A DNA stretch of 64,000 nt, taken from the NCBI RefSeq assembly GCF_000830885.1, contig NZ_CP006951.1, positions 682,001 to 746,000 on the forward strand. The letters are read 5' to 3'. This stretch comes from Dehalococcoides mccartyi CG5 (GTDB lineage Bacteria; Chloroflexota; Dehalococcoidia; Dehalococcoidales; Dehalococcoidaceae). Positions 2,108 through 10,481 of the stretch are shown here, one piece after another (position 1 is the first letter of the stretch; every line of letters starts with the position of its first letter). The notes under the pieces were generated by a model. It was not told the DNA's origin, did not search any database, and saw only the letters and a list, made by a program, of their open reading frames with translations. The position numbers and the translations under genes are program-made.

Positions 2108-2698
2108 TCAGTTTTCCAGCATGCCTTTGGTGCTGGGGGCAACACCCTCGCGTCTGGGGTCAATACTGGTAGCTTTGTCCAGTGCCCTCGCCAGCGCCTT
2201 AAAAAGGGCTTCGGCTTTATGGTGGTCATTAGAGCCATAAAGAATACGGGCATGCAAATTAAGCCGCCCTTCAATAGCAAAGGTCTCCAGAAAGTGCCTG
2301 ACCAAGTCTGTAGGGAAGCCGGTAAGGTCGTTTTTGGCAAAAGACAAATCCATTACCGCATATCCCCTTCCGCTTAAGTCCAAGGCTACTGAAGCCAAAG
2401 AATCATCCATGGGTACAGTAGCATCAGCCATGCGGACAATCCCTTTGCGTTCCCCTAAAGCTTCATTAAAGGCTTTGCCAAGGGTAAGTGCCACATCTTC
2501 AACCAGATGATGGATATCATCTCCGTTGGCAGAAATATTTATGTCAAATAACCCATGCTTAGCCAGTTGGGAAAGCATATGGTCAAACAGCCTGACCCCG
2601 GTACACATGTCTGCCTGACCGGTGCCGTCCAAATTAAGGCTCAGGCTAATGGTAGTTTCGGTAGTCTGCCTTTTTATAGAAGCTGTTCTTTTGGTCAT
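2108..2698 (-). CDS. hisB: Imidazoleglycerol-phosphate dehydratase
   Basis: HisB dehydrates imidazoleglycerol phosphate to imidazoleacetol phosphate in histidine synthesis. The protein is 196 residues, the normal size of the monofunctional enzyme, with no phosphatase domain. The two metal-binding repeats are visible: HHLVED (about 63-68) and a second DHHKAEA motif near residue 160. I chose the ATG at 2698 because GGGGGA sits 5 nt upstream; an in-frame ATG at 2716 lies inside hisC and has no such site. It is the last gene of the operon, and hisC ends 2 nt before it. Confidence 0.95.
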
Positions 2699-2699
2699 A

Positions 2700-3776
2700 T
2701 TATTCCCCCATTTCACCCAGAGCTTTTAACAGCCCGTCTGTATCTTCGGGTTTGCCCACTGAAAAACGCAGGCAGTTCTCCATCATCGGGGCATCAAAGC
2801 ACCTTACCAGAATACCCTTTGACTCCAGTTCATGCTGAACTTCTTTGGCTTTGCCTTTAAGAAGTTTGCACAAAATAAAATTGGCCACAGAAGGATATGG
2901 TTTCAGCCAGCCAAATTTACTTAGTTCAGTATATAACCGCTGCCGTTCATTAACAATCTTTTTTACAGTTTCCAGCATATACTCACGCTGGAGCATGGTC
3001 TGGCGGATGGCCGCATCAGCTGCAATATTTACCGAATAAGGGTCTTTGATACGTGACAGATAGTCGGCAATTATCGGTGGGAATAGTCCATAACCTACTC
3101 GGAGACCTGCCAGTCCAGCCCATTTTGAAAAGGTGCGGAGTATCATAAGGTTAGGGTATTTTGACATATCCGAAACCATAGTCTGTCCGGTAAATTCGTA
3201 ATAGGCTTCATCAACTACGGTGGGTACACCCAAATCCAGTATTTGACGGATTTCCTCTTTGCTTATGGCCGTGCCTGTGGGGTTATTGGGGGCGGCTATA
3301 AATATCAGCTTGGTTTGCGGGGTAATGGCATTGTTTATCGCGGCAATATTTATGTTATAGCTGGCATCACGCGGTACATTGACTATCTTGCCTCGGTTCA
3401 GCTCAGTATAAAATTTATACATGGCAAAGGTAGGCGGACAATTAATAACCTCGTCTCCGGGGTTTATAAACAGCCGAAGCAACAAATCTATCAGCTGGTC
3501 AGAACCTGCCCCGCAGACAATTTGCTCAACAGCTACACCTGTATATTCAGAGAGCAATCGGCGGATTTCAGACTGGGTGGCATCAGGGTAAATATGATAC
3601 TGATTGAACTCAGCCATAGCCTGCCGCACAGTTGGGGCAGCCCCGTACAGGTTTTCATTGGCATCCAGCTTGATTATCAGTTTGCTGGTTTTGACCAGTT
3701 CGGGTGCTTTGCAGGCAGAATATCCGGCAAAGTCCTCCAGGTCTGTGCGTATATATTTCTTTAGATTATAGGTCAT
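2700..3776 (-). CDS. hisC: Histidinol-phosphate aminotransferase
   Basis: A PLP-dependent fold-type I aminotransferase that converts imidazoleacetol phosphate and glutamate to histidinol phosphate. It has 358 residues, typical for HisC. The PLP lysine is K218 in [24 protein letters not shown] (163-169) and VVDEAYYEF (187-195) are the usual cofactor-binding segments. It lies between hisD (12 nt upstream) and hisB in the operon, which supports the histidine role over a general aromatic aminotransferase. Confidence 0.94.
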
Positions 3777-3788
3777 ATTATTTCTCGC

Positions 3789-5099
3789 TTATTCCAGTCG
3801 CTTCAAAACAGCTTCGGCATGGCATTCCAGCCCTTCAGCCTTGGCAATAGTAGCGGCAGCTTGCCCTAGCTTTGCAATATCCTGTTTATCCACTTTGACA
3901 ATATCTATATATTTTACAAAATCCAGTATATTAAGGGGAGAACTGAAACGGGCTGTGCCGGAAGTGGGCAAAGCATGGCTTGGTCCGGCTACGTAATCCC
4001 CCATTACTACACTGGCTTTTTCTCCGTAGAATATGCAACCGGCATGATTTATTTGGGTAAGGTATTTCTCCGAATCTTTTACCAGCAGGCACAGATGTTC
4101 GGCGGCATACATGTTGGCCAGTTTGATAGCCTCGTTTATATTATCCACCACCGCAATCAGTCCATTATCCCGTAGAGATTGCTTGATAATATCCCTGCGG
4201 GAACAGGTATCGGCTTTTGATTCCACAATATCATTTACCCTGTTAGCCAAATCTTCAGACGTGGTTATAAGTATTGATGAAGCCAGTGCATCATGTTCTG
4301 CCTGTGCTAAAATATCCGAGGCACAATATTCGGCGTTAGCATACTGGTCAGCTACTATCAACACTTCGCTGGGCCCCTGAAGTCCGTCAATATCTACTAC
4401 CCCGAATACGGCTTTTTTAGCCAATGTAACAAATATATTACCCGGCCCGCATATCTTGTCTACTTTGGGTATGGACTTTGTACCAAAAGCCAAGGCTGCC
4501 ACTGCTTGAGCGCCTCCACAAGCGAATATGCGGTCTACACCGGCTATCTGAGCTGCCGCCAAGGTTGGTGCCGGTATTTTGCCGTTTGCTCCCGGAGGAG
4601 TAACCAGTATAATTTCTTTAACCCCGGCTTCTCTGGCTGGAATAGCGGTCATAAGCACGGTTGAGGGGTAAAAAGCTTTGCCGCCGGGCACATATAAACC
4701 TACCCGTTCCAGCGGGCGGATAAGCTGTTTGCCTTGCATGATTTCAGCCGTTTTCCAGACGGCTTCTTTCTGAAAACGGTGATAAGCCCGTATTTGAGAG
4801 GCTGCCAATTGAAGGGCTTCAAATAGTTCAGCAGGAATTTCACTGGCGGCTTGCTGGATTTCCGGCTGTCCAACCTCCAGCTTTGACAGATTGGCGCGGT
4901 CAAACTTCAGGGTGTACCCTAACACAGCTTCATCGCCCTGCTTGCGTACATCTGCAATTATGCCGTTTACAGCCTTTTCAGGGTCAACCCCCAGCCGTCT
5001 GGCAAGTTCGGTTCTTTCAGTTTCATCCAGAAAGAACCCGGCCTTATCCCGGCGGGAAAGCCTTTTTTCTGCTTGGGCAAACCCGCGGATTATTTTCAT
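3789..5099 (-). CDS. hisD: Histidinol dehydrogenase
   Basis: HisD carries out the last two steps of histidine synthesis, oxidising L-histidinol to histidine with two NAD and a zinc ion. The 436-residue length matches the family. Characteristic segments include GGKAFYPSTVLM, CGPGNIFVTLAKK and GPSHALPTSGTARF. An upstream GGAGG about 11 nt before the ATG serves as ribosome site. It starts 6 nt after hisG ends and is followed by hisC, so translation is probably coupled along the operon. Confidence 0.96.
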   Translation of the reverse strand: MKIIRGFAQAEKRLSRRDKAGFFLDETERTELARRLGVDPEKAVNGIIADVRKQGDEAVLGYTLKFDRANLSKLEVGQPEIQQAASEIPAELFEALQLAASQIRAYHRFQKEAVWKTAEIMQGKQLIRPLERVGLYVPGGKAFYPSTVLMTAIPAREAGVKEIILVTPPGANGKIPAPTLAAAQIAGVDRIFACGGAQAVAALAFGTKSIPKVDKICGPGNIFVTLAKKAVFGVVDIDGLQGPSEVLIVADQYANAEYCASDILAQAEHDALASSILITTSEDLANRVNDIVESKADTCSRRDIIKQSLRDNGLIAVVDNINEAIKLANMYAAEHLCLLVKDSEKYLTQINHAGCIFYGEKASVVMGDYVAGPSHALPTSGTARFSSPLNILDFVKYIDIVKVDKQDIAKLGQAAATIAKAEGLECHAEAVLKRLE

Positions 5100-5105
5100 T
5101 TTACT

Positions 5106-6512
5106 TTAGGCCTCCAATGCCTTCTTAAGCATATTTATCACTTTGTTTATCCGCTCACTCTTGGCTGCGGAAACTACACTCTGGTAGTTTGCTATAACAC
5201 AGGCGGTAGATTCAAACAAGGTATCTATTATTTTCAGGTTATGGCGGGCAATAGTGCCGCCGGTCTCGGTATTTTCCACCAGCATATCGGCATCTTCAGG
5301 CAGAAAGGCCTCAGTTGCTCCCCATGTAGGAACAATGCGGTAATGCCCCAAATGGTTGCTTCTGGCATAAAAGTCAGAAATATTGGTATATTCGGAGGCT
5401 ATCCGCATTTCACGGTTGCCGCAGTAGTTTTTCAGTTCCTCCAAATTGGCAACCGGTACATCATTGTGTACTACCGCTACCAGTTTCACCCAGCCGTATT
5501 TCAGGTCCAGCAGTTCTTTGACCGGGCTGGTCGGGAATTGGTAGAGATGGTCGGTCAGCCAGTCACGCCCGGTAATAGCCAGATCAAAATTGCCGTTGGC
5601 TACCTGTATAGGCATATCCTGCGGACGGATTACTTTTACCGCAATGCCGTTTATGCCGAAAGCAGGCCGATGGTTGCCGCTGGCGGAAGGGTAATCTTCA
5701 ATAGATATCCCGGCGGCATCCAGTATCTTACGGACATGGGGTTGCTGGTGTCCGTCAGGCAGTGCCAAACGGACAGTGTCATCCGGCATATCCAGAAATG
5801 ACGGCTGGCAGGCATTTAACGGCTCAATTTTAATATCTTCAGCCTTGGGTTCAATATACTGGCTGATATTTGCCATTACAGATGAAATAGCCCCGCTCAG
5901 GTCCTTTTTTTCAAGGCTTTGGCTGTTAGCTATAAGATAGGCTTTAAAATCCAGCACTTTGGCGATGGAACGCAGATTTTTCTTGGCCAAATCCGCCTCA
6001 GATTTGCGGGGCAGGATAACCACTTCAGCTGTATCCGGCGGATAAGCTTCTGCCGAACCCCAAAGGGGGAAAATACTAAAATTTTTAAGCCGCAACTGCA
6101 TGGCAAACGCCTCGGCAATATTGGGGTATTCACTGGCAATGCGTATGCGGGTAGTGCAGGCAGACAGTGCTGCCAGACTGTCATACCGGCTATTAATAGC
6201 CGTAGCGGCATATAACGCGCCATGCCCGTAGCCCAGATTTTTCAGCTTGATTATATTGCTGGAGGGATAGCGTGAAGTCAGCTCGGTAAGCCAGTCTGCT
6301 CCGCATACACCCAAATCATAGTTGCCTATGGCCAGCTGAATGGGTATGTCTTTCTCGTGAAATATCTTGGCGGACATTTTAGGATTTGAGACAGATTTGA
6401 AGCAATAGATTTTAGCTTTATCCATGTATCCGTCAAGCCCCCACTGGCTTTTCTCCAGCAGGGTTTTGGTATCACCAAGCAATCTGCCCTTTGGCAGAGC
6501 CACTCTAAGCAT
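5106..6512 (-). CDS. hisG: Tandem-duplicated ATP phosphoribosyltransferase (double HisG)
   Basis: HisG condenses ATP with PRPP, the first and feedback-controlled step of histidine synthesis. This protein is about 468 residues, twice the usual short form (about 210), and consists of two HisG-like halves. Half 1 has RVALPKGRL (3-11), GNYDLGVCG and IASEYPN (125-131), but where the PRPP loop belongs it reads VVILPRKSEADL (164-175). Half 2 has RLALPDGHQQ (248-257) in place of the KGRL motif, then GNFDLAITG, IASEYTN (371-377) and an intact ENTETGGTI loop (413-421). Each half therefore keeps a different part of the active site. The hisZ gene overlaps its start, consistent with a HisG-HisZ complex. 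I prefer ATG 6512 with GGTGA upstream; GTG 6521 is the alternative. Confidence 0.9.
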   Translation of the reverse strand: MLRVALPKGRLLGDTKTLLEKSQWGLDGYMDKAKIYCFKSVSNPKMSAKIFHEKDIPIQLAIGNYDLGVCGADWLTELTSRYPSSNIIKLKNLGYGHGALYAATAINSRYDSLAALSACTTRIRIASEYPNIAEAFAMQLRLKNFSIFPLWGSAEAYPPDTAEVVILPRKSEADLAKKNLRSIAKVLDFKAYLIANSQSLEKKDLSGAISSVMANISQYIEPKAEDIKIEPLNACQPSFLDMPDDTVRLALPDGHQQPHVRKILDAAGISIEDYPSASGNHRPAFGINGIAVKVIRPQDMPIQVANGNFDLAITGRDWLTDHLYQFPTSPVKELLDLKYGWVKLVAVVHNDVPVANLEELKNYCGNREMRIASEYTNISDFYARSNHLGHYRIVPTWGATEAFLPEDADMLVENTETGGTIARHNLKIIDTLFESTACVIANYQSVVSAAKSERINKVINMLKKALEA

Positions 6513-7743
6513 CTTCTTCACCGTTTAACAAGTAAATAACCTCAGACTGTTCTTTAAGCTCTAAAGTTTTGTCTTCAATCAGGTCTGTTACCTCGTAGCA
6601 ATCTTCAGCTTTGACGGTTACTGCCCAGCCATAGGCTGCCGTATCCACACCGGGGTAAAAAAGCTCGGCGCTTATACCGCACTCGCGGATAAGGTTAGCT
6701 ATTTCATAGGCATTCTTAAGGTTATCACCCTGGTATTTAATAAGTATCTTTTCTTCAACCATATCGTACATATCTTCAGCATCTATCATGGGGATAAGAC
6801 GGTTCAGATACAAAGCAAACCCGGCCGCCGGCTTATCAGGTCCGCCCAGCAGAGGTATCAGTTTATCATAGCGGCCGCCGCCGCCTACATGTTCGCCGTT
6901 TACAAACAGGTGGAAAATTACACCGGTATAGTATTCAAAACCCTTGCCGGATGCAAGGTCTATCTGATAGCTGACACCCAGTTTATCCAGCACGTCCACC
7001 CCGGCAATGAAATCATTAAGGGGTTCTTCCAGCTCGCCGCCTGCGGTACCGGCCATGGCCATCACATTTTTCAGGAAAGAGGCTGAAGTGCCTTTATTTT
7101 CCATAAGCAGTTTCAGGGTGCGGAAAAGTTCTGGCTTTTCGGTTTCAAGCCTGCTCATCAGGGCAATATCTCCGTCCAGCAGCTGGTCAAATATTTTATG
7201 CTGTTCATCAGCATTCGGCTCAAGCTGGGCCAGCACCGCTTTTATAAGCTGGGCATGTGAAAGCCTTAGCTCCACGTCTTCAAAACCCAGTCTGGCAAGG
7301 GTTTCCAGCGCCAGCGTAATCAGCTCGGCATTGGCTTCAGGGCTGGTAACCCCTATCAGTTCAGCTCCCAGTTGCCAGTTTTCGCGGGATTTTTTGCCCG
7401 TTTCATCAAAACGGAAAATACTGGAGGTGTAACAAAGACGGGCAACATCCATTTCCTGCAGGCTGTCAATATACAGTCTGGCAGCAGGTATAGTGCCATC
7501 CGGGCGTAAAACCACTCTTTCACCGCTCCAGCCGTCCCAATCCAAAAAGGAATACACCCTTTTTAACATCTGGGGGGTAAGTGTGCCGCTGGAAGTAAAC
7601 AGACTCAGATATTCAAGCATGGGGGTACGCACTTCTTCGTATCCCCAGGTGATGCAACTGTCATGGAAAATGCTCTCTATATACCTGAACCGAAGCATAT
7701 CTTCGGGCAATAAATCGCTGCAACCTTTACAACGCGCAATCAT
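6505..7743 (-). CDS. hisZ: ATP phosphoribosyltransferase regulatory subunit
   Basis: HisZ is a histidyl-tRNA synthetase paralogue that binds short-form HisG and is needed for its activity and histidine feedback. The 412-residue protein has the class II synthetase core (RPDGTIPAAR, GGGRYDKLI, AAGFALYLNRL). The catalytic HisS motif RGLDYYT is altered to GKGFEYYTG, losing the arginine, which argues against a working synthetase. Residues from about 325 resemble a C-terminal anticodon-binding-like domain, somewhat longer than minimal HisZ. It is the first gene of the his operon and overlaps hisG by a few bases. The alternative call, a true hisS, is unlikely from context. Confidence 0.85.
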   Translation of the reverse strand: MIARCKGCSDLLPEDMLRFRYIESIFHDSCITWGYEEVRTPMLEYLSLFTSSGTLTPQMLKRVYSFLDWDGWSGERVVLRPDGTIPAARLYIDSLQEMDVARLCYTSSIFRFDETGKKSRENWQLGAELIGVTSPEANAELITLALETLARLGFEDVELRLSHAQLIKAVLAQLEPNADEQHKIFDQLLDGDIALMSRLETEKPELFRTLKLLMENKGTSASFLKNVMAMAGTAGGELEEPLNDFIAGVDVLDKLGVSYQIDLASGKGFEYYTGVIFHLFVNGEHVGGGGRYDKLIPLLGGPDKPAAGFALYLNRLIPMIDAEDMYDMVEEKILIKYQGDNLKNAYEIANLIRECGISAELFYPGVDTAAYGWAVTVKAEDCYEVTDLIEDKTLELKEQSEVIYLLNGEEDA

Positions 7744-9926: not shown

Positions 9927-10481
9927 ATGCCGTCCAACCCTCTGGAAGAATATAATCGCAAGCGTAATTTTGCTCAAACTGCCGAACCATCAGGAGTAAA
10001 AAGCGTACCCTCTGACAAGCCCGTATTTGTTATTCAAAAACATCTTGCCAGCCATCTGCATTATGATTTCAGATTGGAAATTGATGGGGTATTAAAATCA
10101 TGGGCTATTCCCAAAGGACCTTCTGCCAATCCCAAAGAAAAACGATTGGCGGTTGCTACCGAAGACCACCCTATGCAGTACGCATCTTTTGAAGGGGTAA
10201 TACCCGAAGGGGAATATGGTGCGGGCAAAGTGATAGTGTGGGACAAAGGCACTTTTGGCAACCTGAAGGAGGGTAAAACACTGGCTGAGTCTTATGATAC
10301 AGGGCATTTGGTTATAAACCTTCAGGGTAAAAAACTGAAAGGCGGATATTCGCTTTTACGGACCAAAATGGGCTGGCTGATGGTGAAGATGGAAGATGCA
10401 TTTGCTGACCGTTTGTCAGATATACTTAACGAACAACCGGCTTCGGTAATAACTGGTAAACTGGTAGAAGAAATTATTTAA
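9927..10481 (+). CDS. Stand-alone LigD-type 3'-phosphoesterase
   Basis: A 184-residue protein made only of the phosphoesterase domain found at one end of bacterial DNA ligase D. Diagnostic segments are FVIQKHLASHLHYDFRLE (His and Asp/Arg metal and phosphate ligands), WAIPKGPS, HPMQYASFEGVIPEGEYG and VIVWDKGTF. In the family this domain removes 3'-phosphates and ribonucleotides from primer ends during end joining. No ligase, polymerase or Ku gene is nearby. The ribosome site GGGGGAG is clear. The same 13-base string GGGGAGTAAACTG precedes this gene and the next one. Confidence 0.88.
   Translation: MPSNPLEEYNRKRNFAQTAEPSGVKSVPSDKPVFVIQKHLASHLHYDFRLEIDGVLKSWAIPKGPSANPKEKRLAVATEDHPMQYASFEGVIPEGEYGAGKVIVWDKGTFGNLKEGKTLAESYDTGHLVINLQGKKLKGGYSLLRTKMGWLMVKMEDAFADRLSDILNEQPASVITGKLVEEII

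Follow-up and report, generated by a model that had tools for sequence, protein, structure and literature searches.

A tandem double HisG in Dehalococcoidia and the division of active-site residues between its two halves

A double HisG gene in a histidine cluster

The whole stretch of DNA analysed here (the window) comprises 64,000 nucleotides of the 1.36-Mb single-contig genome of Dehalococcoides mccartyi CG5 and carries on its minus strand a histidine gene cluster, hisZ-hisG-hisD-hisC-hisB, whose hisG gene encodes two domains of HisG, the adenosine triphosphate (ATP) phosphoribosyltransferase, in a single chain (Table 1). Judging from the way in which residues are divided between the two halves of this double HisG, one HisG copy probably does the chemistry and the other lends a residue to it.

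Two HisG halves in tandem had been read from the sequence in an earlier note on this DNA, and profile searches return the same picture: PF01634 (E 2.8e-64, 216 bits, cut-off 25.5) and the TIGR00070 hisG model (266 bits, cut-off 75.75) each match in two stretches, and both curated cut-offs for membership of the HisG family are passed. A whole-genome search finds no further HisG beyond these two domains; no HisG_C regulatory domain is found, PF01634 being the sole Pfam match at E up to 1. An alternative start, GTG at 6521, is possible and would give a protein of 471 residues. An AlphaFold model of the protein (70 sequences) has a mean predicted local distance difference test (pLDDT) of 85.7 and a predicted template modelling score (pTM) of 0.80, and HisG chains of known structure, the comparison that the earlier note had proposed for each half, align to model residues 1-221 with Z scores of about 18-23 and to residues 242-468 with Z scores up to 23; both halves are thus predicted to have the HisG fold. 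A 242-residue frame on the plus strand (5073-5801) lies antisense to half 2, has no Pfam match and is probably spurious.

The gene that overlaps hisG upstream was taken for hisZ in the earlier note, and this identification holds. It reaches neither the hisZ nor the hisS curated cut-off, and as the true hisS, located elsewhere in the genome, scores far better (474 bits against 216), the overlapping neighbour is a HisZ-type paralogue. Its position is conserved: hisZ lies upstream on the same strand in 154 of 158 fused loci, and the remaining four have at most 147 bases of upstream sequence. HisZ is therefore likely to be the partner of the double HisG.

Table 1. Features of the double HisG gene and its cluster (window positions; residues are those of the encoded protein)
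Feature	Position	Strand	Basis
Double HisG gene	5106..6512	minus	Stop 5106-5108, ATG 6512, 468 residues; Pfam and NCBIfam matches
Half 1, residues 1-219, HisG fold without PRPP loop	5856..6512	minus	Model alignment; loop absent in 165/165
KGRL of half 1, residues 8-11	6480..6491	minus	Arg in 113/165 half 1s
Lys34 of half 1, at P. arcticus Arg56 position (trans PPi residue)	6411..6413	minus	Aligned column
His52 of half 1, at P. arcticus Arg73 position (trans ATP gamma-phosphate residue)	6357..6359	minus	Role from PMC10998830 (available part)
Degenerate PRPP-loop region of half 1, residues 167-174	5991..6014	minus	Aligned columns
Linker, residues 220-240	5793..5855	minus	pLDDT below 50
Half 2, residues 241-468, HisG fold with PRPP loop	5109..5792	minus	Model alignment
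DGHQ, standing for KGRL in half 2 (residues 253-256)	5745..5756	minus	Near-invariant in 165
Gly279 of half 2, at Arg56 position (Arg lost)	5676..5678	minus	Basic in 4/165 half 2s (R 3, K 1)
PRPP loop ENTETGGT of half 2, residues 413-420	5253..5276	minus	Intact in 164/165 half 2s
hisZ, overlapping hisG upstream, likely regulatory partner	6505..7743	minus	Profile matches, conserved position
hisD, next gene of the cluster	3789..5099	minus	
hisC-like aminotransferase	2700..3776	minus	
hisB (imidazoleglycerol-phosphate dehydratase, IGPD)	2108..2716	minus	

Division of active-site residues between the halves

The active sites of HisG are shared between subunits (statements from papers cited by PMC number refer to their available parts). 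In Acinetobacter baumannii HisG, the two active sites are located in the crevice formed by subunits arranged head to tail (PMC10795190); in the short form, HisGS, of Psychrobacter arcticus, Arg56 of one subunit contacts the pyrophosphate (PPi) of the 5-phosphoribosyl-1-pyrophosphate (PRPP) bound in the other, and the mutations R32A, R56A and R56K carry costs of 25-fold, 42-fold and about 24-fold, respectively (PMC9734150). Arg73 of the adjacent subunit forms a salt bridge with the gamma-phosphate of ATP (PMC10998830). As the available part of PMC9734150 does not describe Arg32, the arginine of the KGR motif, as crossing the dimer, it is taken to act within its own subunit.

Numbering these positions after P. 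arcticus HisGS (5m8h), residues were compared in 165 non-redundant pairs of halves (163 fused, 2 encoded as separate genes), identical domains being counted once; the statistics on positions 56 and 32, like those on HisE below, ignore kinship, except for parsimony counts made on a subset of 44 tips. In the D. mccartyi protein, half 1 reads ALPKGRL and has VVILPRKSEADL in the place of the PRPP loop, and half 2 reads ALPDGHQ and contains ENTETGGTI, in agreement with the earlier note. This split of the loop extends well beyond one protein: in aligned columns, the T/S-G-x-T/S loop is found in 164 of 165 half 2s and in no half 1 (a looser window around the loop finds [ST]Gx[ST] in 7 half 1s), and the acid at position 176 is present in every half 2 and in no half 1. 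These two absences rule out a complete site of its own in half 1, the case that the earlier note had named as fatal to its proposal. Half 2 keeps R73, D94 and E163 in 165/165 and has D30 in 164, G31 in 165 and H32 in 165; being near-invariant, the DGH that stands for KGR is a conserved substitution and not decay. The KGR arginine, moreover, occurs in only 2 of 48 single HisGs of Chloroflexota (R56 in 44, R73 and E98 in 48), so that its absence from half 2 is no sign of a dead site.

Position 56 is split in the sense opposite to the loop: it is basic in 156 of 165 half 1s (R 152, K 4, other 9) and in 4 half 2s (R 3, K 1). Half 1 also keeps E98 in 165/165. At position 73, it has R in 20 and K in 1, Arg73 being lost in 144, and a conserved K/R stands two residues further on in 159. 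The KGR arginine is R in 113 half 1s and D in 22. Half 2 has gained a conserved arginine at 58 (140/165) and at 59 (155/165). Of 27 columns conserved in the 48 single HisGs, 11 are kept by half 2 only, 3 by half 1 only (position 56 among them), 10 by both and 3 by neither. Mean pairwise identity is 45% for half 1 and 54% for half 2, half 1 being the faster-evolving.

These patterns point, with fair probability, to a pseudo-heterodimer in which each fused chain has a single composite active site: half 2 provides the substrate site and half 1 lends residue 56. A HisG homodimer would have undergone duplication, divergence and usually fusion, yielding an obligate pseudo-heterodimer. Half 2 would form the substrate site with its PRPP loop, acidic residues and invariant DGH; half 1, having lost its own site, would be retained as the dimer partner of half 2, and its basic residue 56 (mostly Arg, Lys34 here) would cross the interface to the PPi of PRPP bound by half 2. 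Since Arg73 is mostly lost from half 1, a half-2 site served by half 1 would keep the PPi contact and usually lose that to the gamma-phosphate. HisZ would bind as in HisZ-HisGS complexes, and two fused chains with four HisZ would then be expected where four HisGS assemble with four HisZ. The composite site with specialised halves proposed in the earlier note is therefore still the best reading of the residue split, with Arg56 as a better candidate for the shared residue than the motif pair named there.

Several points weigh against this reading. The genus of the window itself has Lys at position 56, the very change that is costly in P. arcticus; in nine half 1s this position is neither R nor K; and the arginines gained at 58 and 59 of half 2 may have replaced residue 56 in its role. 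Arg73, the other trans residue, is gone from most half 1s, so not all trans contacts are kept, and as half 1 alone keeps 3 of the 27 columns, the match at 56 is just modestly unlikely by chance. The pTM says only that the halves are placed with some confidence, and fold searches compare single chains, to which dimers are not visible; the pseudo-dimer geometry is thus itself inferred.

Some of the same observations would suit a half 1 that serves purely as a scaffold, as in the folding-only case that the earlier note had named against itself, or as a regulator, involved in HisZ docking or allostery, with half 2 holding all catalytic residues and using His255 together with the arginines at 58 and 59: the near-invariant DGH, the conservation of both arginines, the Lys at residue 56 here with its loss in nine relatives, and the faster evolution of half 1 all fit. 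However, scaffolding alone needs no basic residue at position 56, which is nonetheless kept in nearly all half 1s in spite of their degenerate site, and this alternative is considered rather unlikely. Less probable still is the proposal of the earlier note that one site is built from the KGRL of half 1 together with the TGxT loop of half 2. In its favour, the D. mccartyi protein has the two motifs, and the 13 half 1s without Arg56 all have the KGR arginine just as the 52 without the KGR arginine all have Arg56 (Fisher p 0.01, kinship ignored). Against it, this arginine is missing from many half 1s, is rare in the single HisGs of the phylum and changes six times on the 44-tip subset, compared with three times for Arg56, and Arg32 is not presented as a dimer-crossing residue in the available part of PMC9734150; the pairing of these motifs is probably wrong, and we regard it as highly unlikely.

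Distribution, descent and the second step of histidine synthesis

The survey of relatives for the fusion that the earlier note had suggested yields the 163 fused and 2 unfused pairs above and shows that the double HisG is old and, within the genomes scanned, confined to the class Dehalococcoidia. HisG is found in 135 of 148 class genomes, many with two domains in one frame; of the two-domain genomes, only those with listed places entered the locus set, which leaves out G016, G031, G043 and G092 (two matches) as well as G046 and G139 (single matches, short or at a contig end). With a half-1 profile, about 243 of 393 class genomes carry half 1, a hand count of 307 matches minus 64 single-HisG matches at E >= 4e-27. 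Among the matches listed for 400 phylum genomes, full-length ones occur only in the class itself (worst 9.5e-123), and those outside it cover half 2 only (best 1.5e-38). A scan of 84,980 species genomes confirmed 251 loci, the best 80 of which are all two-domain frames; this recurrence of the same form in 80/80 named loci rules out a sequencing or fusion artefact. Two of these 80 carry Deltaproteobacteria titles and the rest titles of Chloroflexi, Chloroflexota or Dehalococcoidia type; the two (L147 and L164, from metagenome-assembled genomes) are mutually 91-94% identical and about 70% identical to Dehalococcoidia copies, as a mislabelled bin or a transfer would be. Locus L224 (G053) was rejected as a double HisG: it is a single HisG whose second lobe contains a long insertion, which made the profile split its match in two. 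For all members of a 70-member alignment of double HisGs, the general hisG model is the only NCBIfam match. No paper combining hisG and Dehalococcoides was found in the open-access literature, and a survey of his gene fusions that covers two Dehalococcoidetes does not mention a double HisG in its available part (PMC1963479).

In a tree of 138 domains, whose root is not placed and some of whose end branches are long, half 1 and half 2 each form one side of a branch (Shimodaira-Hasegawa-like approximate likelihood ratio test, SH-aLRT, 100 and 95), and the single HisGs together with references form another (SH-aLRT 99); this is as would be expected from one duplication followed by joint descent of the halves, in line with their co-inheritance across the sampled pairs. 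Two loci, L059 and L067, encode the halves as separate overlapping genes beside hisZ, with an overlap of TGATG in L067 and a GTG upstream of the stop in L059. L059 is the first branch in the half-2 part of the tree (support 86); in the half-1 part it falls at the base, which is not resolved. L067 likewise branches deeply. Either the unfused state is ancestral or fission occurred, both loci coming from draft genomes.

The genomes that carry the double HisG mostly lack HisE, the enzyme that usually performs step 2 of the pathway. The D. mccartyi genome has no PF01503 match (controls positive in 14/14) but does have hisI. A PF01503 match with E no higher than 6.2e-14 is found in 72 of 393 class genomes, all of them without half 1, the lists of half 1, HisE and MazG having been compared by eye; in the phylum, HisE is found at 1e-9 in 144 of 300 genomes. 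Two genomes, G118 (L262) and G611 (L263), have both half 1 and a HisE recognised by a custom HisE profile (PF01503 5.2e-9 and 5.2e-10), located just upstream of an additional single hisG, as if a canonical pair of hisE and single hisG had been acquired beside the double HisG. PF01503 matches in G131 and G518 were rejected as HisE, and other weak matches remain in genomes with a double HisG. MazG, which serves for HisE in Desulfovibrio (PMC5764234), is present in the D. mccartyi genome and in 249 of 272 class genomes. Eleven half-1 carriers, at least 92% complete, have neither a MazG nor a HisE match: G097, G509, G519, G575, G583, G592, G652, G662 and G726 of family f45, G142, and G711. Three f45 loci, L063 (G048), L072 (G067) and L088 (G097), all keep hisZ, hisD, hisC and hisB, and only G097 is among the eleven; this genome is 99% complete and combines a double HisG and his cluster with no HisE or MazG match.

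This raises the question as to whether the two traits are connected. That they are not, with ordinary phosphoribosyl-ATP (PR-ATP) being formed, another pyrophosphohydrolase performing step 2 and a shared ancestor as the only link, is somewhat probable: MazG is at hand in the D. mccartyi genome, and family f22, with a single HisG, MazG and no strong HisE, shows that HisE is also lost without a double HisG. Conversely, the eleven carriers mean that MazG is not the step-2 enzyme everywhere, and in family f35 HisE is present again, encoded immediately upstream of a single hisG. A double HisG using adenosine monophosphate (AMP), or the diphosphate (ADP), instead of ATP could convert AMP directly to phosphoribosyl-AMP (PR-AMP) and make HisE unnecessary. 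The absence of half 1 from all 72 strong-HisE genomes, the existence of carriers without a MazG match and the frequent loss of the gamma-phosphate-binding Arg73 from half 1 are consistent with such a route. However, the 21 half 1s that keep R or K at 73 belong to lineages (for example f18 and f36) likewise seen without strong HisE, half 1 mostly retains the K/R two residues past this position, and f22 lacks strong HisE with its single HisG. AMP is an inhibitor of HisG and is not known to be its substrate. Given f22 and the R73-bearing pairs in particular, the AMP route is judged improbable.

The D. mccartyi genome further contains three strong His_biosynth (HisA/HisF) matches, one more than the two expected (G000:C1:1030144, 871766 and 763210), and the window encodes a stand-alone LigD 3'-phosphoesterase domain protein of 184 residues (9927-10481).

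Significance and relation to known ATP phosphoribosyltransferases

HisG homodimers in which an arginine crosses the interface serve as a model for how HisZ activates its partner allosterically. In a natural pseudo-heterodimer where just one site is live, each copy of a residue could be changed separately, which is impossible in a homodimer, and cis and trans roles could thus be tested directly. That double HisG and HisE hardly ever occur together points to a histidine pathway whose second step is unfilled or bypassed and, if the AMP route were true, to a shortened pathway in energy-limited anaerobes; the class has cultured members growing in defined medium (cited in PMC5764234).

The double HisG may well represent a third ATP phosphoribosyltransferase architecture beside the two described forms, HisGL and HisGS (PMC8305728). 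With the HisGS-HisZ systems of P. arcticus, A. baumannii, Lactococcus lactis and Thermotoga maritima it has in common the HisG fold (Z about 20-23), a hisZ partner gene, the absence of any recognisable C-terminal regulatory domain and the PRPP loop, here in half 2. It differs from them in that its two HisG domains, joined in one chain or encoded by two genes, are unlike and one of them is without the substrate loop, and in the invariant DGH that replaces KGR in its live half; its 468 residues form two domains, compared with the single domain of about 214 residues of HisGS (PMC8305728). With HisGL (Escherichia coli, Mycobacterium tuberculosis, Campylobacter jejuni) it shares the fold of the catalytic domain; unlike HisGL, it shows no recognisable C-terminal regulatory domain, has a hisZ neighbour and has its catalytic domain doubled. 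No report of a division of labour between duplicated subunits was found for HisG in the open-access literature. Enzymes are known, however, whose duplicated homodimer includes a partner that is no longer catalytic yet completes the site of the other, and it is this division of labour that the double HisG would have in common with them.
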